Shown one piece after another: positions 29,580-53,943 of a stretch of 60,168 nt of DNA. The stretch's first letter is position 1. Each line of letters starts with the position of its first letter. The position numbers and the translations under genes are program-made. Where the stretch lies: positions 1-60,168 of the forward strand of contig JAFTVE010000031.1 of the NCBI GenBank assembly GCA_017465905.1. The letters run 5' to 3'. Source of the stretch: Bacteroidaceae bacterium. GTDB taxonomy: Bacteria; Bacteroidota; Bacteroidia; Bacteroidales; Bacteroidaceae. The notes under the pieces were generated by a model. That model was not told the DNA's origin. It saw only the letters and a program-made list of their open reading frames with translations, and ran no database searches.

Positions 29580-30635
29580 ATGAAAAAGTATTTTAAAATT
29601 CTTTGGAGAAGCCTCCTTGGACTAGCGGCAGTAGTAATTGTGTTAGTGGGTATGGTGTTGCTTATAAAGTGGTGCAGAAATCAGAATAATTATTATACGG
29701 AGCGTGAATTGTCTGATAATGTGACGGTTCGTTGGTACTATCACAAAAGTGAATACAGACTTTATAATTCCCATGAGAAAAAAACTGTCTTGAAAGGTAT
29801 AGATAAGGTGGTAAAACCGGCTAGAGGTGATTCACTTACTGTCTTTTTCCAGGATGGACTTCGTGGCTATCTTAATGCCAATACGGGAAAAATCGTGATT
29901 CCTGCGCAATATAGTAGTGCCTGGCTCTTTTCTGAGGGGGTAGCTGCTGTTATGGACTCATCTGGTAAGATTGGATTTGTCGATAAGGACAATAAAGTAG
30001 TCTTGCCGTTTGTTTATAGTTCTTGCTATGGGAAGAATGTGGACTACCTGTTCCATAATGGATTGTGTGTGATGACTGACGTACAAGGAACTTGTGGCCT
30101 TATTGATGTCACGGGAAGTTGGGCGTTGGCTCCTAAGTATGATTATATATGGTCGCCTCGGTATGGAAAATACCGTATAGTCATTGAAGATGGTAAGTAT
30201 GGAGTACTTGACGAATCTCTCAGTCTACTGTTTCCCATAGAGTATGATTTTATAGAATTTGCTAATTCCGAGGCTGATGGTTTGTTGTTGATAAAGGATG
30301 GAGTGAAGCAACAAGTTGCATTTGATGGTACAGTTCTAGTTCCGTTTATGTTGGATGATGCCTCAGACTTATATTATACACAGCGTATAGAATCTATTGT
30401 CGTGCCTGATGGTGAAGGCTCTTCTACTCTATATAGCGAAGTAACCCTCTTGTCTGATTACCTGCAATATTGCGTCCACAATAGTTGGGGATTGATGCAC
30501 CGGGAGACTGGCAAGGTGATTCTTCCTGCACTGTACAATGACATTGAAATGTTGTCTTCAACGCTTGTCAAGGCAGAACTCGCAGAAGCATCTGGGTATA
30601 TCCTGTTTGATGTTAATGGACAGCGTATTGAATGA
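29580..30635 (+). CDS. Membrane-anchored WG-repeat protein
   Basis: 351 residues with one N-terminal membrane segment (about 10-30) and a large outer part containing at least four WG repeats (GYLNANTGKIVIPAQY, IGFVDKDNKVVLPFVY, YGVLDESLSLLFPIEYDFI, WGLMHRETGKVILPALYNDI). WG repeats form beta modules, usually with unknown binding partners, and are common in Bacteroidetes accessory regions. It opens the AT-rich island and lies 22 nt before the WG/VWA gene. Confidence 0.75.
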   Translation: MKKYFKILWRSLLGLAAVVIVLVGMVLLIKWCRNQNNYYTERELSDNVTVRWYYHKSEYRLYNSHEKKTVLKGIDKVVKPARGDSLTVFFQDGLRGYLNANTGKIVIPAQYSSAWLFSEGVAAVMDSSGKIGFVDKDNKVVLPFVYSSCYGKNVDYLFHNGLCVMTDVQGTCGLIDVTGSWALAPKYDYIWSPRYGKYRIVIEDGKYGVLDESLSLLFPIEYDFIEFANSEADGLLLIKDGVKQQVAFDGTVLVPFMLDDASDLYYTQRIESIVVPDGEGSSTLYSEVTLLSDYLQYCVHNSWGLMHRETGKVILPALYNDIEMLSSTLVKAELAEASGYILFDVNGQRIE

Positions 30636-33112: not shown

Positions 33113-33131
33113 ACTCAAATGATGAAAGACT

Positions 33132-35800: not shown

Positions 35801-35857
35801 ATTCACCAAAATTCATTTGAAATCAAGTAGCTATATATGAAGGATGGCCCTTTTTAA

Positions 35858-35887
35858 TTGTGCGTTAAGAAAAAATAGTTACATTTG
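35858..35887 (+). promoter_or_regulatory. Consensus promoter of the ADP-ribosylglycohydrolase gene
   Basis: TTG at 35858-35860, a 19-nt spacer and TACATTTG at 35880-35887. An in-frame alternative start at 35885 falls inside this box, so translation must begin at ATG 35903, with a short leader. The -7 box and the next three bases (TACATTTGCAG) are the same as in the leader-RNA promoter at 41411. Confidence 0.65.
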
Positions 35888-35902
35888 CAGAAAAAATATA
35901 CC

Positions 35903-37435
35903 ATGAATATAGCATATAGAAATAAAGTATTAGGTTCTATGGTTGGCGGTGCTGTAGGAGATGCACTTGGCTATCCCGTAGAGTTTATGAGTTATGACCA
36001 AATTCTTCACAAATATGGAAGTGGAGGGATTACTCGTTATGAACTGAATAAAGAGGGGGTGGCGGAGATTTCCGATGATACCCAAATGAGCCTGTTTACG
36101 GCTAATGGAGTTCTATTTTGTTTTACCAGATATGCTACTCGCGGAGTTTTAGGCGCAAGTCCAGCAGACTATATTCGTGATTCGTATATTGAATGGTTGC
36201 AAACTCAGACAGGATGTATTGACTATACCCAATGTCATTATAATTGGATTCGCGGCGTTAAAGAACTTCATGCTAATCGCGCTCCTGGAATGACTTGTAT
36301 GGCTGCATTGCAACAATTGGCAAAGCATGAGGCTGTTGTTAATAAAAGTAAGGGCTGTGGAGGTATCATGCGAGTGGCTCCATTGGCCTTATTTGCAGCC
36401 CATCCAGTACATGATGTCGATTTGCCATCTCATGTAGAGCTTTATGTGAAAGAATCGGGAAAAACAGCAGAATTAACACATAAGCATCCTCTTGGGTATA
36501 TACCTGCAGCTTTCTTATCAGCTTTGATACAGAAGCTTATGCCATATTCGTATCTGTCCAAGACTCAACTGAGGAAATGTGTTGTTGACAGCATGTCATT
36601 GATAGAAGAGATTTATCCAAATCAACGAACGTATACGGATTATCTGAAACAGTTGATAGACAAGGCTATAGAATTATCATATAGTAGCGAGAGTAATTAT
36701 GCTGCAATCTGTCAGTTGGGTGAAGGATGGGTGGCTGAAGAAACTTTGGCTATTGCCATGTATTGTTTGATGAAGTATCCTGACAACTTTGAAAAGGCAA
36801 TTATAGCATCAGTCAATCATTCTGGCGATAGCGACTCTACGGGTGCTGTCGTAGGAAATATTATGGGTGCATTGCTCGGATATGATGCTATCCCTGACTA
36901 TTATAAAGAGAAACTTGAACTAAGGTGGCTTATCGAGGAGTTGGCAACGGACATCGCAATGGGTATTCCTGTTGGGGAATATATGGATTGTTATGACACT
37001 CCAGAAAAGAGACTTTGGATGAAAAAATATGTTGACATCATGGCCTATGATTGTGCCCCTATAAAGAACTCCTATCTTGTTCATAGCGATTTGCATATCT
37101 ATGCAGGCGAATATCCAGGTGATAAGGATGAGCATAGATGCCGTATGAAAGTTCTGGATTGCTGTTGGTCAAAGTTTAAGCACTTCTATGATCTTACTTG
37201 TAATGGAGAGCTTACACCTTATGCAAACTATCTCCCTCCCCAAAAGTGTTATACAAGATTCCCTATTTCAGATTGTGGAGTACCGGACAACACTGCAATT
37301 GTGGCAAGATTGTTGCAAGAGATAATATACAAAGGAGAAAACGCCAATCTTCACGATGAATATATCTATATTCATTGTTGGGGCGGAGTGGGTAGAACTG
37401 GTAAATTGTCGCATGTCTCTATGCTTACTTACTGA
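35903..37435 (+). CDS. ADP-ribosylglycohydrolase fused to a tyrosine-phosphatase-like domain (frameshifted)
   Basis: 510 residues as it stands. About 1-350 is an ARH/DraG-type hydrolase: GAVGDALGYPVEF, SDDTQMSLF (metal ligands), GCGGIMRVAPLALF and SGDSDSTGAVVGN. It removes ADP-ribose from proteins or nucleic acids. About 390-510 is a DSP-like domain with HCWGGVGRTG (Cys492, Arg498). Just after this loop the frame fails: one missing A near 37403-37406 changes the expected GKIVACLYAYLLRGQG to KLSHVSMLTY-stop. The original frame continues to a TAA at 37594-37596. This is either a real inactivating deletion in the A/T tract or a sequencing error. Confidence 0.8.
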   Translation: MNIAYRNKVLGSMVGGAVGDALGYPVEFMSYDQILHKYGSGGITRYELNKEGVAEISDDTQMSLFTANGVLFCFTRYATRGVLGASPADYIRDSYIEWLQTQTGCIDYTQCHYNWIRGVKELHANRAPGMTCMAALQQLAKHEAVVNKSKGCGGIMRVAPLALFAAHPVHDVDLPSHVELYVKESGKTAELTHKHPLGYIPAAFLSALIQKLMPYSYLSKTQLRKCVVDSMSLIEEIYPNQRTYTDYLKQLIDKAIELSYSSESNYAAICQLGEGWVAEETLAIAMYCLMKYPDNFEKAIIASVNHSGDSDSTGAVVGNIMGALLGYDAIPDYYKEKLELRWLIEELATDIAMGIPVGEYMDCYDTPEKRLWMKKYVDIMAYDCAPIKNSYLVHSDLHIYAGEYPGDKDEHRCRMKVLDCCWSKFKHFYDLTCNGELTPYANYLPPQKCYTRFPISDCGVPDNTAIVARLLQEIIYKGENANLHDEYIYIHCWGGVGRTGKLSHVSMLTY

Positions 37436-37624
37436 GAGGACAAGGATTGAATGCCGATGAGATATATTCAAGAGCAATGCTTCAGCTCCAAGAGAGTTTC
37501 TCTCGCTGTCCTAAATCAAAAACACGAGTATCTCCAGAGAATCATCTGCAACGTTCATTCGTGCGGAAGTTTATTGAAAATGAATGTGTCAATTAAACTA
37601 TTGTATAGTATTAATTTCAATGTT

Positions 37625-37881
37625 ATGAAGAAGCGACTCTATTTTGATATGGACGGAGTTCTTGTTGATTTCGAATCGGGATTAGCACAACAGGACGAAC
37701 AAACCCTTAAGGAATATGAAGGATGTTATGATGAGATACCAGGATTGTTTGGGCAGATGTTGCCAATGGAAGGAGCTATAGATGCCGAAAAAACGGGACA
37801 AGTGAGTTTGAAGGCGAATGGATACAGTTTGGTTCGGGACAGTTTCCCGACTGGACAGCAGTAGTCGACTATCTGTTATAA
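37625..37881 (+). pseudogene. 5'(3')-deoxyribonucleotidase-like HAD gene with an internal deletion
   Basis: The start MKKRLYFDMDGVLVDFESGLA is the HAD nucleophile motif of the 5'(3')-deoxyribonucleotidase family. After MLPMEGAIDA the reading jumps to the family's C-terminal end, which is in another frame: KNGTSEFEGEWIQFGSGQF, then PDWTAVVDYLL and TAA at 37879-37881. The middle, roughly 90 residues with HAD motifs II to IV, is gone. The present frame stops at 37864. Not functional. Confidence 0.7.
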
Positions 37882-41388: not shown

Positions 41389-41418
41389 TTGTCAATTGTG
41401 AATAATTGTTTACATTTG
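41389..41418 (+). promoter_or_regulatory. Consensus promoter of the leader RNA and sigma/dynamin operon
   Basis: TTG at 41389-41391, a 19-nt spacer and TACATTTG at 41411-41418, an exact Bacteroidetes promoter. The -33 part sits in an AATTGTCAATTGTGAA repeat. Transcription should start near 41424 and read through the structured leader toward 42024. Confidence 0.65.
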
Positions 41419-41423
41419 CAGTA

Positions 41424-41956
41424 AGAAGTTTTTTGGATATTATTTCGAGTTTAGCTGAGAGGGATTTTGGGATAGATTCATCATCTCGAGGCGAAGAGAA
41501 TAGTGGCCTATTCACGAGAATCGAGAGGGTAAATATGCCGAAAATAACCTCAGATAATCCGGAAAGTATTTCATGTACTTATTAACGGTAAAATCCAAAC
41601 AGCTTCTGGAAACCTGCGCTGAGCCTTTTCGTATGAAAAGGAGGTAGGGGTGGGTTATTCTTTGACATATAAGAAAAGGCGTTTACTTGACGCTTAGCTT
41701 TCTACGTTCCAAACTTCGCAAAATTTTGAAACCAAGTAAGAAAGCGAGGCAACGGTAGATGCCCGTGGGATATGTATATACAATATAGCATATCAACAAC
41801 GAGGATTTCTCGAAGGCCTTCAGTGTCTTCGTTTTTTCGTTGGCTATATTCTACATATCAGCGTGGGCTTCTGCGTTGCTTATCCTTACTTGGTAGGTAA
41901 TGCGAAGACCTGGAACCGTGGGATAAGCAACAGGTACAGATTCCCACGTTTTTTTC
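41424..41956 (+). ncRNA. Candidate structured leader RNA of about 530 nt
   Basis: No open frame fits, but pairing is extensive near the 3' end. Hairpin A: GATATGTA (41769-41776) with 41852-41859; AATATAGC (41782-41789) with 41843-41850; CAACGA (41797-41802) with 41837-41842; CGAAG (41811-41815) with CTTCG (41827-41831), followed by T6. Hairpin B: CGTGGG (41862-41867) with CCCACG (41943-41948), and GTTGCTTATCC (41875-41885) with 41921-41931, followed by T7 (41949-41955). CCAAGTAAG (41732-41740) could also pair with 41885-41893. The 5' end is placed only from the promoter. It may be a stand-alone RNA or an attenuating leader. It does not match RNase P, tmRNA or SRP RNA motifs that I know. Confidence 0.6.
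41862..41955 (+). terminator. Hairpin B with U-run (terminator/attenuator)
   Basis: A large two-tier stem (6 bp outer, 11 bp inner) ends directly in seven T residues. It lies 69 nt before the first codon of the operon, so it must end the leader RNA or control read-through. Confidence 0.65.
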
Positions 41957-42023
41957 TTTTTAAACACGCGATAGAACCACTCGGTTCGGGGAGTCTACGA
42001 GGAGAATAAGGCAAATTCTTATA

Positions 42024-42317
42024 ATGGACATATGTCTTAAATTTCGACTGCATATGAATGGTGAAGACTTATATCTAAAAGGTATGGAACAGATGCATTG
42101 TTTTTATGACACGGCACCTTATGGAGGAATGCATTCTGCCGACTATCAGAAAATGATAGTTGAAAAGTATTTTATCCCTGCTGCAAACACAGGTTGTGTG
42201 CAAGCAATGAAAGAATGTGGAGATTATTATTTGTCAATAGACAAGGCTAAGGCTGTCAAGTTTTATCGATTATATATGAAGAATTGTCCTAAGGATGAAT
42301 TCACTAGGCTTATGTAG
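42024..42317 (+). CDS. Small Sel1/TPR-like protein
   Basis: 97 residues. The C-terminal half (YFIPAANTGCVQAMKECGDYYLSIDKAKAVKFYRLYMK) matches a single Sel1-type helical repeat; the N-terminal half is not recognised. ATG 42054 is an alternative start that would drop ten residues. It is the first gene after the structured leader and lies 63 nt before the sigma factor gene, so it may be a small adaptor in that circuit. Confidence 0.55.
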   Translation: MDICLKFRLHMNGEDLYLKGMEQMHCFYDTAPYGGMHSADYQKMIVEKYFIPAANTGCVQAMKECGDYYLSIDKAKAVKFYRLYMKNCPKDEFTRLM

Positions 42318-42380
42318 TTGCCAAATTGGGACTGAATGCATTAATGTAAACAGCAAGTTTCTAATATTATTAGGTATTAC

Positions 42381-43055
42381 ATGAAAGTCTTGTTAAATTA
42401 TAAAACTCTCACAGATCGTGAATTAGTGACTCTGACCTTAGAAGAAGGTGATATTGAGGCTGTACGTTTTCTTATACATGTAAGATATGAGAAATTGCTT
42501 AATGCTTTGATTTATCGCTACTGTGGCGCATCGGCCTACAATGAGGACCTGTTGGTTGAGCTTATAGCACTCTTATTAGGCAAGGATGGTGACTGGGCAC
42601 CTTTGAGGAACTTTCAATGGCGTTCTTCATTTAAGACTTGGTTAACACGTGTTGCCTCTCATTTATTTAATAAGATGCGTGATAGATTGATAGGTGAAGA
42701 GGTTCTAGAATCCTCTATGCCGACAGATGCCAATGGTAAATTGTCAAGTATTAATAGGGAAGTTGAACAGCCTGAACAGCAAAATGAGCAAATGGTGATT
42801 TTGCTGGAAGCAATCAATCGTATGGAAAATGATGAATATCGTTTGATATTGGTGAAAATATTGGAGGGGTATAGTCCAAAAGAGATTGCTGCAATGCTTA
42901 ATCATAAACGAGAACGTGAGGGGTTGCAGCGCAAATATAAGGAAAAAGTTGTGGCGCTTAATGCTGAATATGTACATATGACTAAACCTAGGGCGATAGC
43001 CGCAGTAAAACCTATTGTTAAACAAGTACAAGAAGAATGGTATGGAAATAAATGA
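42381..43055 (+). CDS. ECF-like sigma-70 family factor
   Basis: 224 residues. Region 2-like segment: DIEAVRFLIHVRYEKLLNALIYRYCG..., then FQWRSSFKTWLTRVASHLFNKMRD, in the usual place for core binding and -10 recognition. Region 4-like segment: EAINRMENDEYRLILVKILEGYSPKEIAAMLNHKRER, with a helix-turn-helix. The C-terminus continues about 45 residues past the HTH, longer than common ECF factors. It probably redirects RNA polymerase to this operon. It overlaps the next gene by 14 nt. Confidence 0.8.
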   Translation: MKVLLNYKTLTDRELVTLTLEEGDIEAVRFLIHVRYEKLLNALIYRYCGASAYNEDLLVELIALLLGKDGDWAPLRNFQWRSSFKTWLTRVASHLFNKMRDRLIGEEVLESSMPTDANGKLSSINREVEQPEQQNEQMVILLEAINRMENDEYRLILVKILEGYSPKEIAAMLNHKREREGLQRKYKEKVVALNAEYVHMTKPRAIAAVKPIVKQVQEEWYGNK

Positions 43056-43437
43056 CGAACTGATGGCTTGTTATATTGACGGGACTGCAACTCCTGAAGA
43101 GTGCGTTATGGTACGTGAATACCTTTTGAAACATCCTGAGGAATATAAGGATATGCTATTTCTTATGGATGAGGATTGTGAACTGCATTGCTCAGAAGCA
43201 GAGCTTGATGTAATGTGCAAACCTGAGTACTTAAAAGATTTGCATCAATATGAAGTGCCTATGAACTGTTTCGGTACAAAAGCTATAAAGAAAAAAGCTT
43301 TTTGTAAATCGGTTTATGCCTATAATGGAGTAAAAGGTGTAAAAGCTGCGAAAAAACAATTAAGTGATAAGAAACAAGGAGATAATGGCTTTTTCTCCCG
43401 ATTAAGTCAAATGATAGATGACGTGAATAATTTGTAA
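43042..43437 (+). CDS. Putative anti-sigma factor
   Basis: 132 residues from ATG 43042, inside the end of the sigma gene (14-nt overlap), so translation is coupled. The N-terminus (ELMACYIDGTATPEECVMVREYLLKHPEEYKDML) is the helical pattern of Bacteroidetes anti-sigma domains. The usual HxxxCxxC zinc motif is not clear, and there is no membrane segment, so it would be a soluble anti-sigma factor. The rest is basic and unassigned. The role is inferred from position and the N-terminal pattern. Confidence 0.65.
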   Translation: MEINDELMACYIDGTATPEECVMVREYLLKHPEEYKDMLFLMDEDCELHCSEAELDVMCKPEYLKDLHQYEVPMNCFGTKAIKKKAFCKSVYAYNGVKGVKAAKKQLSDKKQGDNGFFSRLSQMIDDVNNL

Positions 43438-43466
43438 AATGATTAATAATCAAATTAGTTCCTATT

Positions 43467-43967
43467 ATGATAAATGAATTTAGAGAATATTGGTCAAAGA
43501 CAAAAGGCATGTTGGACTTCAAGGCTCAATCAATGTCTAGTGAAAATAAACGTGTCCCTATAAAGAACATTGTCGATTATTATAAAAAAGAAATAATAGA
43601 TAAACTCTGGTTTTCGGAACATTTTCCCAGTAAATATAATGATTGGGTTGAAATTAATCTGCCACCATCCAATCCAAAACGATTAAAGGTGAGAAATGCT
43701 ATGTTGGGGATGTCTGTTTCTCCACTTGCTAAGAAAAGAACCGTATTCGGTGCAATTATTGTTGCTGTTTTATTGTTGCTTTTATCAGTTGTACTGATAA
43801 AAATGAAAGTGGTATGGTATGTTTATACCCTTATCATAGCTCTTGCTCTATGCCTCGTTGTGTGGGGACTGTATGCGTATAAGTATTTGATAGGATACTG
43901 TAGTATAAAAAGTATAGAATCCGAGATGAACAGAATAGAGGATGAAGTGGTGCAACTATTAAATTGA
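43467..43967 (+). CDS. Two-helix membrane protein
   Basis: 166 residues. A soluble N-terminal part (about 1-88) precedes two adjacent hydrophobic segments (about 92-112 and 116-138), then a short helical tail. No family recognised. The hairpin-like pair of membrane helices is similar in layout to the membrane protein later in the operon (51597-52745). It ends 6 nt before the protease gene. Confidence 0.65.
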   Translation: MINEFREYWSKTKGMLDFKAQSMSSENKRVPIKNIVDYYKKEIIDKLWFSEHFPSKYNDWVEINLPPSNPKRLKVRNAMLGMSVSPLAKKRTVFGAIIVAVLLLLLSVVLIKMKVVWYVYTLIIALALCLVVWGLYAYKYLIGYCSIKSIESEMNRIEDEVVQLLN

Positions 43968-43973
43968 TTTATT

Positions 43974-44894
43974 ATGGAAATATTGAAAAAGAATTATTTA
44001 TCGCTCAGCGAATTTATTCAAAAAGAAATGAGGGATTTCCCCAATTTTATACAACCACCATTGTATGCGACGGATCAAGAGAAGCAGTTCTCTGATGTGT
44101 TGATAGAATTTAATAAGCAACAACCTGGTTATTTGAAATATATTGTTCATACCGAAAATATGCGAAGAATTGCTGCTTTGCGTAGGTTGTTAGGTAAAGA
44201 TCAAGTAAATGCTTCTAATAATCCGCAACTATTTAATGTGATAACAAAATTATGTAAGGGATTAGGAGTAAATATGCCTATAGTCTTTACATACGGGAAT
44301 CGGGATATTGCAGCTATTACTGATGTTATGAGTTCTGGAGGTGCCTGTGAATTGTTTGTAGAGAATAATGCATTCACTCTTGGAACCAAAGATTCATTAT
44401 ATATATTTGTAAGCGAAGAATTGATAAATTCGACACAATTAAATGAAAACGAATTGTTAGTTTTGATAGCTCATGAAGTCGGTCATGCTATGGCCAATCA
44501 TTCGTTACGTACTTTGACATATCAATCGAATTTTATCCAATATATAGTGGATATTGATGCGAAAAATAAGATAAAAAAAATGATGAGTGACAAATCATTT
44601 TCTCGTTTACAAGAGGTAACGGCTGATAGGGCAGCATTGATAGCATGTAGAAATGTTGATTATGTATGTTCGATGTTAGATAAGTTAGGAAAAGTCCATC
44701 CTGAACTTATGGATTATGATGACTCCGAATCTGATCATCCTAATAATAGGAAACGTATTGAAATGATTAGATTGTTTGCGAAATCTCAATTATATGCCGA
44801 ATGTATAGAACGAATAGATGGTTTCCCTGTAGATAAAAGTAGGTATATATATACTGAAAGTGATTTACAGGTACATATCATGAGAATAATTTAA
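43974..44894 (+). CDS. M48-type zinc metalloprotease
   Basis: 306 residues. HEVGH at 167-171 is the HExxH zinc site, and Glu214 in QEVTADRAAL is the likely third ligand, as in M48 (HtpX, Ste24, OMA1). The N-terminal about 90 residues are helical and unassigned; DNNAFTLGTKDSLYIFVSEEL is typical of the strands before the active site. Unlike HtpX there are no clear membrane segments, so it is probably soluble or recruited to membranes. It lies 6 nt after the two-helix membrane protein and upstream of the dynamin genes, suggesting that it processes one of them. Confidence 0.85.
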   Translation: MEILKKNYLSLSEFIQKEMRDFPNFIQPPLYATDQEKQFSDVLIEFNKQQPGYLKYIVHTENMRRIAALRRLLGKDQVNASNNPQLFNVITKLCKGLGVNMPIVFTYGNRDIAAITDVMSSGGACELFVENNAFTLGTKDSLYIFVSEELINSTQLNENELLVLIAHEVGHAMANHSLRTLTYQSNFIQYIVDIDAKNKIKKMMSDKSFSRLQEVTADRAALIACRNVDYVCSMLDKLGKVHPELMDYDDSESDHPNNRKRIEMIRLFAKSQLYAECIERIDGFPVDKSRYIYTESDLQVHIMRII

Positions 44895-44923
44895 TCTGTT
44901 CCCTAATCATAAAGAGTATACAA

Positions 44924-46378
44924 ATGAATACACAAGATATAAACCAAATGGCAGTTCGGCTATTGCCCGATGAAATAGAGGCTCAATTCAATATTGATGC
45001 GAAAGTCGTATCGCAATCTTCTGTTGCAATCTTGTTTAATGAACGAAACAAAGAATTGGTGTCATCTCTATTCTCTGACAGAATGGATTACGCTGGAATA
45101 CAGAATTATTTGTTCCAGTTTGTTACGATTAGCAATGATATATCCCTTGAAAAAGAAGACTCTTTTATAGGGTCTGCTTTCTGTGTGTTGGTTCTTGATG
45201 CCGACATGTTACTTAGAGAATGTGAACAAAAGGTAATACAATATATTGGAAGTCATGCAGCAAGAAAGAGTCAGTTGATAATTTTAATACTTAATACAAA
45301 TAAACAGCCTTCCAAAACAGCAATAGAATTGGTCGTTGAGCCTTCTTTGAAGCAACAAGGTTTATCATCTCCTATCATTATGACAGATGATTATAGCCAA
45401 GAGGAACTTTATGATAGGATTGTTTCGTATTTCAAGCAAAACAAACCCGATTTGGATGCAATAAATGCTGAAATCGTAAAAGATACAAATGCAGAAATAC
45501 GTAAATGTTTAGAAACTTTGCAGTCTGTGAAAGAAAAAGAATTAGATGTTATAAATAAGCAATGGGTAGATTTTCAGGAAAATAGAGAGTTATTTACAAC
45601 CTTTCTCAATCAATTGCCCTTGGATTTATGGCTGCAACTTAAACGCTATTATGATGAACATCTGGAAAAAGATATAAAAATCTTTGCTGAAGATGCCCGC
45701 AATGCAATAAGTGAAGAGTTGAAGACAATTGATATTAAAACAATCATGCCTTATTTTGGACTTTATCTGAACTATTTGTGGGGACAATTTCTGAATAATG
45801 AGATGGCTAGTGCGGCAGAAAATCTGACGGAAACGATTAATGTCAAATTGAACACCTTGTTAGAACAATATCGAAGTTTTTTTAATGAAGATGTTCGTAT
45901 TCTAGGGTTTAAGGTTGATGATATAGTACAAGCTGGAAATCTTCCAATCTCATTAGATAGTCCTGATGAATACAACCGGGTACTTCAGAAGGTCGTGGAG
46001 CGTATATTGAATGTGTTTAAGTGGTATTCCATCTTTTCTGGAGGATTAGGTGATTTGCTATATTCTTGGTTCTGTGATTTTGTATTTGGTAAATTTGGTA
46101 ATATGCTTCTTATTCGTAGAAGTGAGGATGAGCTGAGAAGAATCTACTCAGATGCAGTATATCACCAATTTCAAGATCAAGAAGGATTGGATGAAATCAA
46201 AAAACAGGTACAAGATGTATTTATTCCAGCCTTGGAGAAAGAATTTAAGTTTACAATTGATAATATAGCCAAGAAATTCAATGAGAATCTACAAAAAATA
46301 GAGGATGGCTATATCGCAAGAATTTCAGACCTAAAAACTGAGGTACAGACCATTAATGAACACATAAATAGTATATAA
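44924..46378 (+). CDS. Dynamin-like pseudo-GTPase
   Basis: 484 residues. The N-terminal about 165 have the strand order of a small GTPase-like fold (AFCVLVLDADMLL; SQLIILILNTNK, with a G4-like NTNK), but there is no P-loop and no DxxG. The rest is helical, with a long central coiled-coil-like stretch and an amphipathic or hydrophobic segment at about 365-398 (WYSIFSGGLGDLLYSWFCDFVFGKFGNMLL) that could insert in a membrane. It ends 1 nt before the first true dynamin gene. A non-hydrolysing partner for the GTPases is a reasonable inference. Confidence 0.55.
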   Translation: MNTQDINQMAVRLLPDEIEAQFNIDAKVVSQSSVAILFNERNKELVSSLFSDRMDYAGIQNYLFQFVTISNDISLEKEDSFIGSAFCVLVLDADMLLRECEQKVIQYIGSHAARKSQLIILILNTNKQPSKTAIELVVEPSLKQQGLSSPIIMTDDYSQEELYDRIVSYFKQNKPDLDAINAEIVKDTNAEIRKCLETLQSVKEKELDVINKQWVDFQENRELFTTFLNQLPLDLWLQLKRYYDEHLEKDIKIFAEDARNAISEELKTIDIKTIMPYFGLYLNYLWGQFLNNEMASAAENLTETINVKLNTLLEQYRSFFNEDVRILGFKVDDIVQAGNLPISLDSPDEYNRVLQKVVERILNVFKWYSIFSGGLGDLLYSWFCDFVFGKFGNMLLIRRSEDELRRIYSDAVYHQFQDQEGLDEIKKQVQDVFIPALEKEFKFTIDNIAKKFNENLQKIEDGYIARISDLKTEVQTINEHINSI

Positions 46379-46379
46379 T

Positions 46380-48650
46380 ATGAAAGTCAAGGAGTTTAAT
46401 CAAAAGGTAAATGAGTGTCATAAGGAATTAAGAGGATTGCTTAATCGTGTGCAAACAGATTATCCAGAGTTAATCAATTCTGTACTTAAAGATAGTATTG
46501 AAGAGGTAGATAAAGAAATTTCGCGTAATGAATTGGGATTGGTAAGGGTCTTGTTCTTAGGCGCTTCTAGCTCGGGAAAGAGTACCATGATTAATGGTAT
46601 TGCTAGAAAAATAGTAGTTCCGGAAGTGATGCATACCTCTACTCTTCTTCCGACCTGGATTGGTCTTTCGGAGGATGAAACGAAACATCGTGCGGAGGTT
46701 TTGTACCGTGAAACCAACGAGAAAGGTGTGGCTTTTGGTGAAATGAAACCCCTATTCGTGGATTATGATAGTTTCCGATGCAAATATTGTTACACACGTG
46801 AAGATGTGGCAGACCGTAATCGCCTTTTGTCATCTAAAAGATTTAAAGGTAAAGAACTTCATGAAGCCTATATGTGTGTGCCTGATGCAAATGGAATTAT
46901 GTCAAATTATGCTCTAACCTTGGTGGATACGTTGGGACATGGCGTTTCTCACGTAGATGATGAAAAAGCCAAACAAAACATGAAGAATTGTGATATGGCA
47001 ATAATCCTTCTTGATGATAGCGCAAAAATGACAACGGAAGATTTGGACTTTTTTGCATCAACACTATTTAATCCTCGTGAATCTCGAATTGACTCTAAGC
47101 ATATTCTTTTTGTTATTAATAAGATTGATAGATGTCAAAGTCAAGGACAAGCATTAGAAATTTGTAAAAACAATATAAAGAATATATTACAGAAGGCCTA
47201 TGGAGGTAAAGTGCCTGAGGGGTTATATGAAAAACTTTGCAGACAAATTATCCCTTATTCCGCATTGTATGTCAGGATGGCATTGAACGGATTTTATCCA
47301 TACAAAGCTGACGCATTAAGGATTAATGGTTGGATAGAAAACGAATATGAGAGAGCAGCTGAAGACTCTATGATTGGTAAGGAACGTAGAATTGTCAATG
47401 AATTAATAAAATCTGATAAAAAACTTTCATATATACCGAGAGAAGATTTGTTAGAGGAAGGATGCTATGAGATTATGGGTAAGAGTATTGGTGTGATGGT
47501 GAAAGAATTGATAGAAGATGGCACCATTCATAAGAACCATTTTGCTGATATTGAAAGGGTTTCCCAGAGTGTTGTTGATAATGTAAAGGAGGTGATAAAA
47601 TCTTTTGAGGCAAGTAAGGAAGCTATAGATCTTAAAATCAGTCGTTTTAAAGCATGTGAGAATGATATTAATAATTTAACTAAGAAATTGTCATGCGATG
47701 CCCAGTTATTGATTAAGTCATTCCCCAGTGAAGTTAATGGATATATCAAAACAAATGCAGAACAACTCTTCCAACAAGCAGTTGCTGATACAAATGAAAT
47801 GATTAATAATCTAAGTTTTAATGTAAATCCAGATGATTTTACAAGACGTGAACTTAGAAATATGACCCTGCAACAGATAGAGGAATTATTTATGCCTTCG
47901 TTTATGAAGCCATTGAATGATATTATAGCAAAAATGATTAAGGCATTCTGTGATGGTGTTTTAACGACCAGTATTGTTGATGGAAGTATTAAGAACTCTC
48001 CTTCCGATGAATTTAGAAATAAATACAGTCAGCTGCTATGTAATTATATTGACAATGTACAATTGGAGATTAAGAAACTGAATGAAGGCGATCTCTTTAA
48101 GGTGACTCCTATTGACAAGGCACATTTTACAAAGAAGATAGAGGCTTCTTTAAATCAATCCCAATTGACCTTGATTGTTGGTATCCAGAATTCAATTGGT
48201 GGTACTATAAATGCAGGTTTAGCGGAAGAGTTGCAAAAGCCATTAAAAGGTTTTTGGCAGAGCATAAAGAATATGTTCAAAAGTCCTGTGGCTATAATAA
48301 AAGATATGGAGGAGATAGGGCGAAATGCTATTCGTAGTCATATCAATTATACTGTTGCAGAGAAAGCTCTGAGTGGGAACTTTCTAACTAATGAGGCAAC
48401 GGCAGATATTGTTGGTCTATTGGATAAGGCTGAAAGTGATTGTGAAAAGATGGTTATTGGATATTTGGCTGTAATATCTAATGAATTAGAAACATTAAAG
48501 CGAGATTTGGCGCAACGACAAACTAAATTGGAGAAATATCGGATATATCAAAAAAGAATGAATGATGATTTAAAAGCTATAGTTAACAAATTGGAAACTA
48601 TAAAGAAAGATGTTGAAGATAATGGAATTGAAATCGGTTTGACAACTTAA
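46380..48650 (+). CDS. Dynamin-family GTPase 1
   Basis: 756 residues. GTPase motifs: G1 GASSSGKST (61-69), a Thr-rich switch I (MHTSTLLPTWIGL, about 84-96), G3 DTLGHG (183-188), G4 NKID (247-250). The remaining about 480 residues are predominantly helical with long coiled-coil-like segments at both ends (about 390-430 and 690-750) and a hydrophobic patch near 585-605, as expected for bacterial dynamin-like proteins that bind and reshape membranes. It is the largest protein of the operon and lies 4 nt before the next GTPase gene. Confidence 0.85.
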   Translation: MKVKEFNQKVNECHKELRGLLNRVQTDYPELINSVLKDSIEEVDKEISRNELGLVRVLFLGASSSGKSTMINGIARKIVVPEVMHTSTLLPTWIGLSEDETKHRAEVLYRETNEKGVAFGEMKPLFVDYDSFRCKYCYTREDVADRNRLLSSKRFKGKELHEAYMCVPDANGIMSNYALTLVDTLGHGVSHVDDEKAKQNMKNCDMAIILLDDSAKMTTEDLDFFASTLFNPRESRIDSKHILFVINKIDRCQSQGQALEICKNNIKNILQKAYGGKVPEGLYEKLCRQIIPYSALYVRMALNGFYPYKADALRINGWIENEYERAAEDSMIGKERRIVNELIKSDKKLSYIPREDLLEEGCYEIMGKSIGVMVKELIEDGTIHKNHFADIERVSQSVVDNVKEVIKSFEASKEAIDLKISRFKACENDINNLTKKLSCDAQLLIKSFPSEVNGYIKTNAEQLFQQAVADTNEMINNLSFNVNPDDFTRRELRNMTLQQIEELFMPSFMKPLNDIIAKMIKAFCDGVLTTSIVDGSIKNSPSDEFRNKYSQLLCNYIDNVQLEIKKLNEGDLFKVTPIDKAHFTKKIEASLNQSQLTLIVGIQNSIGGTINAGLAEELQKPLKGFWQSIKNMFKSPVAIIKDMEEIGRNAIRSHINYTVAEKALSGNFLTNEATADIVGLLDKAESDCEKMVIGYLAVISNELETLKRDLAQRQTKLEKYRIYQKRMNDDLKAIVNKLETIKKDVEDNGIEIGLTT

Positions 48651-48654
48651 TTGT

Positions 48655-49617
48655 ATGATTGAAGACTCACTGAAACTGAATAAGACAAGCGGAGACATAT
48701 CGGATTTAAAACGATATGTCACTGCTTGTGGTCATGTTAAAGTACTTTTTTTAGGTGCTTCAAACTCGGGGAAAACCACTTTGATTAATGGTCTTATGGG
48801 AAATGATTTACTTCCTGAGTGTATGCATACAAGTACAAAGATAACAACATATATTGGAGGAACTATAGATAATGAAGATTGCATATATTTGTTTGATTCT
48901 GGATCCAATATGAATCCTCGGATACTTAAATCAGAGGAATTTGTAAGATTCTCATCTTATAAATTAGAGGAGGTTTATTCTGCAAAAAAAAGTCGGGAGT
49001 CAACAATGACTGCCATAATTCCTTTTAAGCACGTGTTGTCCGATTCGGATATCTGCATAACAGATACTATTGGATTCGGCATTAATCATTTTGATAGTGA
49101 GGCTACGATAAAAGCAATAGATGAGGCTGACATTATTGTAATAGTATATGATGCAAGCCATACAGGGGGATTTACATTGGATGAATTGGAATTCTTGAAT
49201 AAGTATATATTTAAGAGAGAGGACAGTGTGTTTCCTATGGATAGAATTATTATTGTTCCTAATAAGATAGACAAAGTGCCCTCTGTATATGAAGTGGAAA
49301 AGATTATAAAAACAGATTTATGTAATCTAGTTAGGCGTAATACGCAGGAATTTAAGGTGCTATCTAATAGTATATGCCCTATATCTGCTTATTATTATCG
49401 TTTGGCAAGAGTCGGAATTTCGAATCATGTGATTGCTGGCGACCGTAAGGTAAGGAATGAGTTGATGAATTATGATGCAGAAATGCTGATAAGAGCAGGC
49501 TTGGCAACAGGTAATTATAAGCAACATCTATATGAAGAATCTCAAGTGGAAAAATTGATTGCTCTTTTGAGGAATAAAGCACGGATATATAAGGGGATGA
49601 ATCCCAACCAAGAATAA
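48655..49617 (+). CDS. Dynamin-like GTPase 2 (GTPase-domain only)
   Basis: 320 residues. G1 GASNSGKTT (34-42), switch I CMHTSTKITTYIGG, G3 DTIGFG (137-142), G4 NKID (203-206). The G1-switch I stretch is so like that of the preceding gene that the two probably arose by duplication. It lacks the helical stalk, being little more than the GTPase domain plus about 70 residues. Such short partners can form mixed assemblies with long dynamins; this is inference. Confidence 0.8.
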   Translation: MIEDSLKLNKTSGDISDLKRYVTACGHVKVLFLGASNSGKTTLINGLMGNDLLPECMHTSTKITTYIGGTIDNEDCIYLFDSGSNMNPRILKSEEFVRFSSYKLEEVYSAKKSRESTMTAIIPFKHVLSDSDICITDTIGFGINHFDSEATIKAIDEADIIVIVYDASHTGGFTLDELEFLNKYIFKREDSVFPMDRIIIVPNKIDKVPSVYEVEKIIKTDLCNLVRRNTQEFKVLSNSICPISAYYYRLARVGISNHVIAGDRKVRNELMNYDAEMLIRAGLATGNYKQHLYEESQVEKLIALLRNKARIYKGMNPNQE

Positions 49618-49687
49618 GTGCGCTATTTGTGTAAATGAGATTGACAAAACTAAATATAGATAAAAAGAGATTTTAAGGACAAACACA

Positions 49688-51607
49688 ATGCCAATACAAG
49701 TATTAACAAACAAATGCGACAATGTAAAGAATGCAGTTGTCGCAATTAATGATGAGTATGCAACGCAGTTAGAAACTCTACCTGATATAAAGAAGCAATT
49801 GAAGAAAGTACTTAATAGGGCTTCTGAATATGAGAATGGTTCCTTTATTGTTCTTGTTGTTGGCCCGGTGAAATCGGGTAAATCAACATTGGTTAATTTG
49901 ATAGCTGATGCTTACGTAAGTCCTACACACTTCTTGGAATGTACGGTGCGTCCTTCCATTATCTCGAAGCAAAAAGAGGGAGAAGAAAACTTGATTACTT
50001 CTTTCTCTTCAGGAGATACTATGAATAAGGTAGAACATATAGACTCTATCATCGATTGCATCCGTGGTCTGGAATCAGAAGCCTCTCTAACAGGAATGAA
50101 TATCAATATTGATAAAGTTCCACTTACAGAGGAAAATATTAAAGAGAAAGTGGAGCTCGGGTTGCAAGAGAGCTTGACTGCTGAGACACTTGTAACTTCA
50201 ATCACTACCCCTGGTGGGCAATTACTACAAGATAATGTGTTTGTAATGGATATGCCGGGATTTGATGGGAAATATGCAAACATTGATGACCCTGTGTATG
50301 AGACAATCGCTCAACGTGCCGACCTTATCATATTTGTACAAAGCTCAAACTCGGCTATATCAAAGGTCTCAAAAGATTTTCTGGACGTGTTGAAAGAAAA
50401 CAACAAGAATGTCCCGGTATGCTTGGTGCATAATTTCTTTGAAGCTGCACATTGGCATAGCGAAGAAGAAAAACAAAAAAACAATGCGGAGCAGAAACAA
50501 TTTGCCATCAATGAAATCAAGGCATTAGGGTTTAATATAGATGAAGAGCATTGTTTCTGCATTAATCTCGGAAAGGTAAAAGATGCAAGAGCACGTAATG
50601 AGCAAGGAGAGTATCTGTATGCTGATGTCAGAGAACAAATCTTGCAGCCTGAAGCAGACAAATATACAGAGATGGAAAAAGAACTATACAAACGTGTAGT
50701 AAGCCATCGTGATGAAATGCAATTGCAGAACTGTTTGAATAGGACAAAGCAGCAATTAGAGAAATTAGAGAAACGTTTGAAGGAAGAATTGGAAGAACGT
50801 CAGAAGAAGATAGATGAGTATAAGCGTGTTGAAGATGATTTTAAAAAAATGAGTATATCTGAGTCTTTCAAAGTGAAATTTGAATTACCTGAAAATATAC
50901 GCTCAATAGTTAGTGATACAATATGTAATGCTGTTGATACGAAGATTGAAGGCATCCATCAAGATAATCGATTCACAAGATCAGAAGCTATAACGAAAGT
51001 AAAAGAGCTAATTGTTTATTGTGGAGAAGAACTATATAAAATGTACGCTACTAAATTGGCTTTTGGTACAGTAGAAAATTCTTTGTATAACGCTTGTTTA
51101 GAACGAAAGAACAGCATACTGGAGTTGATAGCAGAATATAATCTTCCGTTTGTTTCATGTATGACAAAACTGAAATTGTCTGAATTACCCAAATTCTCGT
51201 TAGAAAACTGTGCGGATGTTACAGCGGTTGTCCCACCTATACCTATTGGTACGGATGATGATTGGCATCTTAGAAGACACAAAAAAGGACACATAAAGGT
51301 GTATTTTGACACAGTGAAAGACCGACTTATTGGAACGACAAGTCCAACAGTAGTTAATTCGTACATACAAGAAGAAATTGAACCTATTATATTGAAACAT
51401 TTAGAGGACAATATAGGCGAGATAGAAACTTCTTATCTAAGCCGTTTGCACGAGATTAATGATTATTATAGGACACAATTGCTTAAAGCACTTATTCCTG
51501 AAGGATTTGAAATATTTGTTCAAGTAACAGGCAAGTTGAATGTATTATTAGAAACTATGCAAAAGATTATAGGAACTATTAATTTTAATAGACGAGATGA
51601 AGCGTAA
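49688..51607 (+). CDS. Dynamin-family GTPase 3
   Basis: 639 residues. G1 GPVKSGKST (59-67), switch I Thr in FLECTVRPSI, G3 DMPGFDG (188-194). The G4 position reads LVHNFFEA, without the usual NKxD, so nucleotide specificity may differ. A strong coiled coil covers about 340-385 (LNRTKQQLEKLEKRLKEELEERQKKI), followed by a helical C-terminal half. It is less similar to the other two GTPases, so probably a different dynamin lineage. Its end overlaps the next gene by 11 nt. Confidence 0.85.
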   Translation: MPIQVLTNKCDNVKNAVVAINDEYATQLETLPDIKKQLKKVLNRASEYENGSFIVLVVGPVKSGKSTLVNLIADAYVSPTHFLECTVRPSIISKQKEGEENLITSFSSGDTMNKVEHIDSIIDCIRGLESEASLTGMNINIDKVPLTEENIKEKVELGLQESLTAETLVTSITTPGGQLLQDNVFVMDMPGFDGKYANIDDPVYETIAQRADLIIFVQSSNSAISKVSKDFLDVLKENNKNVPVCLVHNFFEAAHWHSEEEKQKNNAEQKQFAINEIKALGFNIDEEHCFCINLGKVKDARARNEQGEYLYADVREQILQPEADKYTEMEKELYKRVVSHRDEMQLQNCLNRTKQQLEKLEKRLKEELEERQKKIDEYKRVEDDFKKMSISESFKVKFELPENIRSIVSDTICNAVDTKIEGIHQDNRFTRSEAITKVKELIVYCGEELYKMYATKLAFGTVENSLYNACLERKNSILELIAEYNLPFVSCMTKLKLSELPKFSLENCADVTAVVPPIPIGTDDDWHLRRHKKGHIKVYFDTVKDRLIGTTSPTVVNSYIQEEIEPIILKHLEDNIGEIETSYLSRLHEINDYYRTQLLKALIPEGFEIFVQVTGKLNVLLETMQKIIGTINFNRRDEA

Positions 51608-52745
51608 TTTAATTATTGTCGTAAGCATATTTCTCATTATCATCGCTTTGATGATAACTGGAAATATTATTACAATTGGTGAGAAGTTGGCTCAACTCAC
51701 AAATTGTAAATATGTAGAGTATGCCTTTTATTTATTATTAGCTGCTTTGTTCTTAGGATTCGTTATAATGCCTATAGTAAGAGTACATAGGACACCTAAA
51801 ATTCCAGAACTGTCAATCGAAGAGGATAGTGATATGGAGTCCCTTATGAGATTTGCTGGGCAATTGTCAAAGAATATGACTTATATTCCCAATAAGGCTG
51901 ACAGAATTTCACATGCAATGAGTTTTAAGAGGCTGACTTCTGATTGTATGTGTAACTATAATGGAATGCGAACTGTTGTACAAAAAGAGCTCGACACTCG
52001 TTTTAATGGGGATGAAGAACTGGGCGTTGTTGGAGTCAATAAACGGATAAAGGAGTGGGCCAAAACGGTTTTTATGATTACAGCCATATCTCAGAATAGT
52101 AAGTTCGATACTCTGAGTGTGATGTATATGAACTACAAGATGATAGAAGATATTATTCTTGCATCGGGATTCCGTCCGGACAATCGTCAGATGTTTAAGA
52201 TGTATGTAAATATACTTTCTACAGCATTGATTACTTATTGTATGTCAGAAGCATTAAGCACGACAAGCAGTGTGACTCCGTTTGATTTCGGTGATTTCAA
52301 TGAAAATGCTGGTGCTGACGATATCGCTAGTTCGGTTGCAGAATCAGGACTAGATACTGGGGGAGCAATAGATACAGATATTGATTTTTCAGATGAGGTC
52401 GGGGATACAGAAGGTTTGTCAATCTATACTATACTTCGCCGTATTCGTATTCCAGGTGTAGTGGTTGGCTCTGTTATTGATGGTACGCTGAACGCACTGA
52501 TGACATTGCGTATAGGATATATCACGCGAACTTATCTACAGCAAGGTAGTGCTGCGTTCAATGGAATGAAAAACAAAAGGACAATCAAACGTCAAGCAAT
52601 GAAAGATGCGGTAATAGCAGTCCCTGCTGTGATACTATCAGGAAGTCATGTGATTGGAAAGAAAGCGACAGACTTTGTACTAAATCTAATACTGAGGAAA
52701 GATACTTCAAAAAAGGAAGAAGTACAATCTGAAAATATAGAATAA
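51597..52745 (+). CDS. Membrane protein, possibly DUF697-like
   Basis: 382 residues. Two membrane segments at about 4-22 and 41-60, then a mainly helical cytosolic part with a low-complexity acidic stretch (about 233-272, DFGDFNENAGADDIASS...) and a small-residue-rich region (GVVVGSVIDGTLNALMTLRIGYITRTYL, about 285-312). The last region resembles the DUF697/YcjF glycine-rich helices that accompany GTPases. It overlaps dynamin 3 by 11 nt, so a joint function at the inner membrane is likely. Confidence 0.65.
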   Translation: MKRNLIIVVSIFLIIIALMITGNIITIGEKLAQLTNCKYVEYAFYLLLAALFLGFVIMPIVRVHRTPKIPELSIEEDSDMESLMRFAGQLSKNMTYIPNKADRISHAMSFKRLTSDCMCNYNGMRTVVQKELDTRFNGDEELGVVGVNKRIKEWAKTVFMITAISQNSKFDTLSVMYMNYKMIEDIILASGFRPDNRQMFKMYVNILSTALITYCMSEALSTTSSVTPFDFGDFNENAGADDIASSVAESGLDTGGAIDTDIDFSDEVGDTEGLSIYTILRRIRIPGVVVGSVIDGTLNALMTLRIGYITRTYLQQGSAAFNGMKNKRTIKRQAMKDAVIAVPAVILSGSHVIGKKATDFVLNLILRKDTSKKEEVQSENIE

Positions 52746-52762
52746 CAAATCATATATATAAT

Positions 52763-53254
52763 ATGGAAGCGATAGATAAGAATAATCCCGTAGCGGTATT
52801 TGAACATCAGATACTAAGATATGAAACAACTGGTGACATACATAAAGCTTTTATGCATTGTTTGCGGAACTTGTCAGATAATGAACTCAAAGAGAATGCG
52901 ACTGGTAAGATTCGGGAAATAGTGAAAAAATATACCTATAAGATCTTTGAGCCGTATGATGATAAATATAGATTGCAAGTTGGCTTTCTTCTAGATTCCA
53001 ACTGGCTATTGGATATAGCCATCAGCTTAGGGTATAAAGAGGTGGAGCATACTAAGATCTCAACAGGCTTGTTCTCTTCAGTTCCAGGAATTGCTATAGG
53101 GTCATTGCTAAAAAAACACAGCTATGGATTATCCCGTAATATGAAGAATAACACAACAGTAATATACTATACAGCACGTTGTTTTTGTGATGATTACAAG
53201 ATGATAGCAGCTATTAGCGAAGAATTGATAAAACTATATTCTAACAGAGGTTGA
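52763..53254 (+). CDS. Small protein of unknown function in the dynamin operon
   Basis: 163 residues, no signal. One moderately hydrophobic stretch (about 100-118, LFSSVPGIAIGSLLKK) may be buried or membrane-associated. No family or catalytic motif recognised. It lies 17 nt after the membrane protein gene and has the same AT-rich composition, so it belongs to the operon. Confidence 0.6.
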   Translation: MEAIDKNNPVAVFEHQILRYETTGDIHKAFMHCLRNLSDNELKENATGKIREIVKKYTYKIFEPYDDKYRLQVGFLLDSNWLLDIAISLGYKEVEHTKISTGLFSSVPGIAIGSLLKKHSYGLSRNMKNNTTVIYYTARCFCDDYKMIAAISEELIKLYSNRG

Positions 53255-53295
53255 CAATGTGTGAACAAGATTATTAATAATAAAATCCAAAGACT

Positions 53296-53700
53296 ATGAA
53301 TGTACAGTTAAGTTACAATGAGATTTTAGGCTATGTGGAAGATAAATTCCATGTAAGACCAACCGTAGAAGTGGTAGATGACCAAACATTGAGTGTATCG
53401 TATAAGATAAGTAGATTTGTGCCTACTATAAATGTTGATGTACATATAGACTTGGTGTCAAAAGAATTAATCGCATTGAGTTATGATTGCTCGAGTATTG
53501 TCAATGGTTTGCTTGGTGGTGTCGTAGGCTTTATGCAAGAAAGAATCCCGCGAGAACAAATCGAGCTCTCCACCGACAATAAAAAGGTTCTGGTACATTT
53601 GGATAAGGTGGAGCAACTGAAAAAGGTGTTCGATGTGGTAGTTCCCACCGATATTACTTTCTACAGTGATTCCATAGTTCTTAATATGGACTTGGCGTAG
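53296..53700 (+). CDS. Small beta-rich protein of unknown function
   Basis: 134 residues. The pattern is beta-rich with a central glycine-containing helix (SIVNGLLGGVVGFMQERIP, about 73-91), recalling lipid- or membrane-binding folds; this is weak evidence. No family is recognised. It lies 41 nt after the previous gene and may be the last but one gene of the operon. Confidence 0.6.
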   Translation: MNVQLSYNEILGYVEDKFHVRPTVEVVDDQTLSVSYKISRFVPTINVDVHIDLVSKELIALSYDCSSIVNGLLGGVVGFMQERIPREQIELSTDNKKVLVHLDKVEQLKKVFDVVVPTDITFYSDSIVLNMDLA

Positions 53701-53715
53701 TACTTACTCTTGATT

Positions 53716-53943
53716 ATGGAACAGTGCAAGGAATGTCCAACTAAAGGAGTCGAGGAATTTTGTTCTCTATGTAAAGGGAACTTCCTTCATGCATTAAATA
53801 AATACTATTGCTCATCATGTATAGGTTCGTTGGAATCTGCATGTGGGGAAATAATGAAGGAGGGTGAGCATTGCTGGATAGATGCTGCTGTAATATGGAA
53901 ACCTGGGGAACCACCAAAGCGAAGACCTAAAGCAAATAAATAG
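53716..53943 (+). CDS. Small cysteine-rich zinc-ribbon-like protein
   Basis: 75 residues from ATG 53716. Cysteines are spaced CxxC (CKEC), CxxC (CSLC) and CxxC (CSSC) plus two more, enough for one or two zinc sites. The C-terminus is basic and proline-rich (KPGEPPKRRPKANK). It is the likely last gene of the operon. The 204-nt spacer behind it contains only a weak GTTAC-6nt-GTAAC hairpin near 54112. Confidence 0.55.
   Translation: MEQCKECPTKGVEEFCSLCKGNFLHALNKYYCSSCIGSLESACGEIMKEGEHCWIDAAVIWKPGEPPKRRPKANK

Follow-up and report, generated by a model that had tools for sequence, protein, structure and literature searches.

A putative sigma factor-headed dynamin operon with an apparently exchangeable GTPase module in a Bacteroidaceae genome

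When does a bacterial dynamin act, and with which partners? Most knowledge of bacterial dynamins concerns single proteins or pairs and offers few hints about the timing of their action. The locus described here, at positions 42024–53943 of the window (the whole stretch of 60,168 nucleotides analysed, contig C13 of a 2.84-Mb genome that is 79.7% complete), bears on this question because it ties dynamins, including a predicted pseudo-dynamin, to a protease and a sigma factor of its own, so that a single locus allows tests of expression, of the choice of partners, and of the trigger. Judging from sequence comparisons, the locus appears to be a bacterial dynamin operon with unusual regulation and exchange. 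A preliminary description, made from the letters alone, had proposed a single three-dynamin operon; the colinearity of genes B–H in three genomes agrees with this, but the run consists of at least two modules, since genes I and J recur without B–H and, in the same genus, behind another front. The locus is therefore better described as a putative seven-gene core (B–H) joined to an exchangeable back end (I, J, and L).

Gene order and the seven-gene core

The co-directional, AT-rich gene run reported in the preliminary description was recovered as 13 open reading frames (ORFs; A–M), all on the forward strand, with intergenic gaps between −14 and 70 nt (in order, 63, −14, 29, 6, 29, 1, 4, 70, −11, 17, 41, and 15 nt, taking M to start at the ATG at 53716). 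The GC content of the region was 0.34–0.37 in 2-kb bins, while the flanking bins on either side reached 0.535 and 0.559 and those at 30–40 kb were intermediate (0.41–0.46). The genes are as follows:

A: 42024..42317, + strand, ORF of 97 residues with no credible family match
B: 42381..43055, + strand, extracytoplasmic function (ECF)-type sigma-70 family factor, 224 residues
C: 43042..43437, + strand, acidic protein of 131 residues, candidate anti-sigma factor; 14-nt overlap with B
D: 43467..43967, + strand, 166 residues, probable anchor with two transmembrane (TM) segments
E: 43974..44894, + strand, M48 metallopeptidase, 306 residues
F: 44924..46378, + strand, predicted pseudo-dynamin, 484 residues
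G: 46380..48650, + strand, dynamin-like GTPase, 756 residues
H: 48655..49617, + strand, dynamin-type G-domain protein, 320 residues
I: 49688..51607, + strand, dynamin, 639 residues
J: 51597..52745, + strand, DUF697 membrane protein, 382 residues; 11-nt overlap with I
K: 52763..53254, + strand, 163 residues, no match
L: 53296..53700, + strand, 134 residues, homologues in stretches L019 and L080
M: 53710..53943, + strand, Cys-rich protein of 75–77 residues

Relatives of the core were sought in a scan of genome_contigs (one genome per species, 84,980 species) with two peptide patterns taken from a G/H alignment; it yielded 41 stretches and two relatives, and further carriers may exist because only these two patterns were used. 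One relative is RUG14590, an uncultured Bacteroidales genome assembled from a rumen metagenome (L019), and the other is a named isolate, Butyricimonas synergistica DSM 23225 (L020; Bacteroidales, Odoribacteraceae). The order and direction of B-C-D-E-F-G-H are identical in the window, L019, and L020, with local identities to the window (L019/L020) of 24/30% for D, 39/46% for E, 26/33% for F, 33/40% for G, and 40/41% for H. The preliminary description had made its single-system view depend beforehand on the genes co-occurring elsewhere, and B–H do occur together, with their order unchanged, in two further genomes. In the window H is followed by I-J-K-L-M, whereas in L019 and L020 it is followed by another D-like protein (D′) and another M48 protease (E′), the latter with a zinc-ribbon-like end; I–J was not found in L019 or L020 within the stretches read, and a homologue of L (23%, E 5e-9) lies near the cassette end in L019.

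The core is rare in the family, order, and phylum genome samples, which are even draws of 200 to 400 genomes from larger groups. With the G protein alone as query (E ≤ 1e-10), nothing was found in 200 other family genomes or in 394 phylum genomes besides its own. A three-row G profile at E ≤ 1e-8 found nothing in 392 other order genomes, and in the family of Butyricimonas G was likewise not found in any of 55 other genomes. D had no relative in the 392 other order genomes once two weak matches (G869 and G888) were dropped as partial, one of them with internal stops.

At the front of the run, the ECF-like sigma factor recognised earlier was retained, as B passes TIGR02937 with 43.7 bits against a cut-off of 42.9. 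The homologue in L020 lies above this cut-off (48.4 bits) and that in L019 below it (36.0 bits), and the Pfam sigma region models stay below theirs on window B (18.6 and 17.4). Alignments of B to these relatives cover just 46 (L019, E 0.007) and 61 residues (L020, E 5e-4), and the identity of B across the relatives is taken from the sigma models. By eye, B seems to carry an insertion of ~25 residues inside the region 4 helix-turn-helix, in place of which regions 2 and 4 of the L019 and L020 factors are separated by a long linker. The family-model scans gave no family above the curated cut-off for A, C, D, F, K, L, or M; the earlier label of A as Sel1-like was rejected, since a Sel1 match was absent from the Pfam scan, and no BLAST match to A was found in L019 or L020.

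Hydropathy analysis (Kyte–Doolittle, window 19, threshold 1.6) revealed a strong hydrophobic stretch at residues 87–142 of D, in agreement with the two-helix membrane protein described previously and pointing to a probable two-TM anchor. The M48 assignment of E holds as well (Peptidase_M48, 61.4 bits against a cut-off of 20.3), with HEVGH at 167 and EVTADR at 214, and in L019 and L020 both proteases, E and E′, retain the two motifs (HExxH and the downstream Glu). M48 peptidases of the HtpX/OMA1 type carry their own transmembrane segments, and neither E nor E′ has one by hydropathy. This, together with the repetition of the D/E pair as D′/E′, suggests that each M48 protease has a D-type partner.

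GTPases, the I–J module, and cassette exchange

F had no Pfam match, and its AlphaFold2 model combines a head of GTPase fold with a long stalk of helices, with 5oxf as the top Foldseek match (E 3.6e-7) and the LeoA fold second. We take PDB 5oxf/5owv to be the Campylobacter dynamin pair. The P-loop GxxxxGK[ST] is missing in all three F homologues, for which reason F is regarded as a pseudo-dynamin, consistent with the pseudo-GTPase of the preliminary description. The other three GTPases all exceed the Dynamin_N cut-off of 27 bits (G 47, H 37.8, I 69.9). In the three G homologues the G1 and NKID motifs are intact and a C-x2-C is conserved at residues 134–137; it belongs to an invariant FRC-x-YC (residues 132–137) inside the GTPase region, which could bind metal or sense redox state. 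Where a helical stalk would follow the G domain, residues 393–740 of G weakly match the tail of the LeoBC model (1.1e-4) in PADLOC, where 10 of the 13 window proteins (all save A, D, and M) were scanned against PADLOC-DB 2.0.0. The motifs of H are intact as well, but at 320 residues the protein has no room for a stalk, so that the three dynamins announced earlier become two apparently full-length dynamins (G and I) and one G-domain-only GTPase (H), beside one pseudo-dynamin (F). In I, the NKxD motif is absent at the expected G4 place (residues 246–253, LVHNFFEA), where five aligned relatives show L-[IV]-[HQ]-N, and nucleotide specificity may therefore differ.

I and its neighbour J, which barely passes DUF697 (28.0 against 27.7 bits), apparently form a separable module that recurs without the core. 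Relatives of I (E ≤ 1e-6) occurred in 5 of the 392 other order genomes; J adjoins I in four of these (L013–L016, with the L016 J weakly similar at E 3e-4), and the remaining stretch, L017, ends at a contig edge. The sole plasmid relative of I, a distant one, is a dynamin and DUF697 pair of Treponema saccharophilum (L018), and in total J lies next to I in six other loci (L013–L016, L018, and L080). No core genes were found in the I–J stretches L013–L018, save for a short P-loop cross-match of G to the L015 dynamin. On the Treponema plasmid, pTS2 (L018 9899–17234), the pair is followed by an HNH protein and, farther on, by genes annotated as the immunity proteins Imm19, SUKH-4, and SMI1/KNR4.

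A comparison with G176, a genome of the same genus, exposed a sharp mosaic in I. The DNA at 49682–50770, beginning 6 nt upstream of the I ATG, is 95.7% identical between the two, while coaBC is 80.9% identical. Amino acid identity per 40-residue block of I is 0.95–1.00 up to residue 360 and 0.24–0.43 thereafter, third-position identity is 0.75–1.00 in the head against 0.23–0.47 after residue 360, and most of the tail is ~50% identical at the nucleotide level. BLAST similarity picks up again at 51490, so that it covers the final 118 nt of I, and continues through J at 72%. Because unequal rates alone hardly explain so sharp a third-position step, the head was probably exchanged or homogenised recently, with the stalk differing. 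Such a stalk swap under a near-identical head would offer a natural experiment for finding out what the stalks of bacterial dynamins recognise.

The stretch in front of I–J also differs in G176 (L080). After a leader shared with the window, described below, it has a zinc-ribbon-like ORF (by eye), a 517-residue protein with several hydrophobic segments, and a 241-residue protein in the sigma position, which overlaps by 8 nt a 407-residue protein matching Peptidase_C39_2 (35.9 bits against a cut-off of 24). Three GTPases of 633, 532, and 668 residues follow, of which the first and third exceed the Dynamin_N cut-off; the second scores 18.8 against 27 with a P-loop present. Behind them lie I and J (71% and 74%), a protein whose start looks P-loop-like by eye, a homologue of L (57%), and a WG-repeat protein (52%). 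One of these GTPases also matches the PADLOC models PDC-M09A (3.4e-5) and HEC-01A (1.5e-4).

In a further genome of the genus, G190 (L082), a VapE-like gene (91.6% nucleotide identity) and the leader precede a sigma factor (65.4 bits), a 76-residue C-like protein overlapping it by 4 nt, and a 302-residue ORF that runs to the contig end. A match of this last ORF to HtpG (27 bits) was not believed. The ORF (L082 13379–14284) ends in LLYTSPSPRD, presumably translated sequencing-adapter contamination and probably an assembly artefact at the contig end. Another G190 contig (L041) carries IS66-like transposase ORFs (by eye) followed by M, identical to the window at 77 of 77 residues, thioredoxin-region DNA, and coaBC, so that G190 apparently holds another sigma-headed cassette between VapE/leader and M/thioredoxin flanks. 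The DNA beside coaBC varies among nine relatives, two of which share a neighbour.

Three further features lie upstream of the run:

WG-repeat protein of the upstream island: 29580..30635, + strand, Pfam WG_beta_rep
Possible promoter: 41389..41418, + strand, TTG-N19-TACATTTG, from a pattern scan
Leader-like dispersed repeat with hairpins, ~376 nt: 41639..42014, + strand, from alignment and alifold

The leader is 80% identical in G176 and G190, which are two other species of the genus, and 74–75% identical in G134 and G1038 (copies at L080 2610–2976, L082 11677–12028, L083 571–954, and L081 17578–17956). Its alifold energy was −95 kcal/mol for five sequences, computed without a shuffled control. 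Copies precede different accessory cassettes, and parts of it precede other, secreted-looking genes. Rfam gave no match to the leader at gathering or at E ≤ 1, except for weak microRNA models upstream of it; plasmids and phages gave no match, and a 27-base exact piece was absent from IMG/VR. In G1038 (L081 2255–17593) the leader precedes an AT-rich island encoding kinase-, PP2C-, FHA-like, and weakly WG-like proteins (by eye, from the N-termini). Signalling islands of this kind may form a family marked by the leader.

The possible promoter was found with a Bacteroidetes-type promoter consensus and lies just upstream of a repeat of ~186 bp (41422–41607), copies of which elsewhere have near-perfect terminal inverted repeats, AGAAGCTGTTTGGATTTTA ... 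TAAAATCCAAACAGCTTCT. The repeat occurs in at least ten other places of its own genome (26 of 110 candidates scored) and many times in relatives, and looks like a miniature inverted-repeat transposable element beside the putative operon promoter. A general sigma-70 promoter scan gave no excess over shuffles (58 vs. 52.9). Upstream of B, no 8-mer or 9-mer was shared by the three core loci, and housekeeping-type promoter patterns were present there twice in strict form in L019 and once, looser, in the window.

Farther upstream, the island at 29580–37864 contains WG-repeat, two vWA, DSP-phosphatase, DUF1232, and ADP-ribosylglycohydrolase genes. Homologues of the WG-repeat protein lie at the end of the L080 cassette (at the identity given above) and downstream of the core in L020 (31%); in Butyricimonas a DUF1232 relative is also found downstream of the core, and G798 has a vWA relative beside I–J. 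As fixed partners both candidates were rejected: vWA occurred in 8 of 58 genomes (own included), adjoining I–J only in G798, and DUF1232 likewise in 8 of 58, again counting its own genome, with G978 as the one case near the core, so that they are companions at most. A cobalamin riboswitch is located at 16749–16948 on the minus strand (105 bits).

Proposed mechanism and competing explanations

What could such a locus do? We tentatively favour a horizontally exchanged, self-regulated (sigma-gated) membrane-remodelling system, probably serving conflict. C would hold the sigma factor B inactive, and D would keep E anchored to the inner face of the cytoplasmic membrane. A disturbance of the membrane or of the GTPase assembly would lead E to remove C, and B would switch the operon on; in the related G176 cassette, the C39-like cysteine peptidase could take the role of E. 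On the membrane, F, G, H, and I–J would then come together in mixed GTPase assemblies, in which F would serve as a non-hydrolysing scaffold, and these assemblies may tether, reseal, or sacrifice membrane where a phage or an envelope-damaging rival attacks. Proteolysis is proposed as the switch because a peptidase is present in the window core, L019, and L020 and, from another class, in G176. A conflict role is suggested by the rare and patchy distribution, the swapped cassettes, and the head/tail mosaic of I; the data are compatible with a role in membrane damage or defence, and in our judgement defence against phage or envelope attack is the most likely role. A bolder version, which we consider rather unlikely, makes the locus a new immune or conflict class, in which a protease-gated sigma/anti-sigma switch reads a mixed dynamin/pseudo-dynamin assembly by an OMA1–OPA1-like logic, the front is exchanged as a cassette, and the shared dynamin swaps stalks under a conserved head to match its partners.

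Several observations weigh against this proposal. The core was found in three genomes only. Relatives of G were found in neither plasmids, phages, nor IMG/VR; I had no IMG/VR match and J no plasmid relative in a search with J itself, and the pursuit of carriage by mobile elements with G and I led nowhere. No described anti-phage system of PADLOC-DB 2.0.0 was matched by the 10 window proteins scanned, with only partial Leo matches, J to PDC-S14 at 8.4e-4, and others weaker, and none of the seven upstream island proteins matched PADLOC. F shows no significant link to G or I by BLAST or hhalign, structure alone connecting them. Hydropathy detected no hydrophobic segment in F, G, H, or I, so membrane contact in the window would need D, J, or amphipathic surfaces; unlike these, the three G176 GTPases do carry hydrophobic segments (L080 6781–12308), and the two fronts may reach the membrane differently. 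D′ is weakly hydrophobic (maxima of 1.51 in L019 and 1.61 in L020), which weakens the anchor idea. In G176, the 241-residue protein in the sigma position has no sigma match, and the C39 protein resembles C by position and a weak N-terminal pattern only (17% identity), while the G190 locus was pieced from two unjoined contigs. Finally, C had no Pfam or NCBIfam match in the window, L019, L020, or G190 and no credible PDB match, and its predicted model is poor (pLDDT, the predicted local distance difference test, 46.7).

A general envelope-stress regulon is possible, though we regard it as doubtful. In it the sigma factor would respond to chemical or osmotic damage of the membrane and the dynamins would mend the cytoplasmic membrane, in the manner proposed for Bacillus DynA and mycobacterial IniA, without any conflict role. 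Sigma control, M48 proteases, and DUF697 proteins all occur in stress responses (HtpX and YcjF, for example), and in the source passages available Bacillus DynA is described in membrane surveillance and mycobacterial IniA as drug-induced. Housekeeping repair should, however, be widespread, whereas the core occurs in its own genome only among 393 order and 201 family genomes, and different fronts have been swapped before the same I–J module.

The proposed switch further depends on C. The preliminary description had called it a coupled anti-sigma factor, and the coupling has stood up: each of the four loci with a recognised sigma factor has a short partner gene that overlaps the gene for this factor (window −14, L019 −4, L020 −8, and G190 −4 nt), which makes C a plausible anti-sigma factor of B. 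No anti-sigma match accompanies this. C was undetected in L019 and L020 by BLAST at E 0.1 and was matched there by position, overlap, and a DGTA(S/T)PEE-like N-terminal pattern common to the window and its relatives; a Foldseek search with the low-quality C model returned 0 matches. The C query lacked its first residue in the Pfam, NCBIfam, and PADLOC scans and in the C alignment. With no family match in four loci and a poor model, C might instead be a linker or substrate adaptor, B being controlled only through its own transcription; given the constant overlap and the similar N-terminal pattern, we think this improbable, though worth keeping in mind.

A vesicle or secretion machine similar to LeoABC, driving membrane vesicle release or protein export, seems quite unlikely. 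The LeoABC proteins of enterotoxigenic Escherichia coli were proposed, in the passages available, to promote vesicle-associated secretion (PMC4159319), and H (LeoA, 1.1e-9), I (3.1e-6), and G (the LeoBC match above) each match the PADLOC Leo models in part, the G176 GTPases matching them better (8.8e-20 and 1.5e-19); LeoA is also the second-best fold of F. These matches are, however, at the domain level, inspection of the core by eye, without a signal-peptide tool, revealed no secreted cargo gene, and the LeoABC passages available mention neither a sigma factor nor a protease. An accidental accumulation of accessory genes at a hot spot of integration, with no single system behind it, could draw on the occurrence of I–J without the core, the L019 and L020 stretches without I–J, and the variable DNA beside coaBC, but is very unlikely indeed, as seven genes keep identical order and short gaps in three low-identity genomes and G176 again has I, J, L, and the WG protein together.

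Comparison with known systems

No published description of this gene combination was found in the literature searched, subscription papers and preprints lying outside that search. E. coli YcjX–YcjF places a GTPase beside a DUF697 membrane protein under Psp regulation, although YcjX is not a dynamin. It resembles I–J in this pairing, and it is not known to include core genes. In the 5oxf/5owv and BDLP pairs, the partners are active GTPases. As in the window, dynamins there are encoded and work in pairs, according to the passages available (PMC6104087). Unlike the window locus, these pairs are not known to include a protease or sigma factor.

OMA1, an M48 peptidase that is itself a membrane protein, cuts OPA1. 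The locus thus has a likeness to this mitochondrial system, in which a protease and a dynamin share one membrane-stress circuit, as presented in the accessible part of the source (PMC10078952). In contrast to OMA1, E has no transmembrane segment by hydropathy. Bacillus DynA is a bacterial dynamin linked, in the passages at hand, to membrane surveillance and phage resistance (PMC8844932). It is described in part of another source as a single protein of two fused dynamins (PMC4159319) and is not an accessory operon.

The nearest described set is LeoABC, whose models match H, G, and I partly and weakly and the G176 GTPases clearly; full-length LeoA or LeoBC matches were not obtained in the window, where the partial ones score 19.5 (G), 36 (H), and 24.6 bits (I). 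Both sets comprise adjacent dynamin-like genes of unequal completeness, as far as the available passages describe LeoABC (PMC4159319). Unlike LeoABC, the putative operon of the window is headed by a sigma factor, a partner protein, a two-TM protein, and an M48 protease, its predicted pseudo-dynamin F is wholly without a P-loop, and I–J with its DUF697 protein is added.

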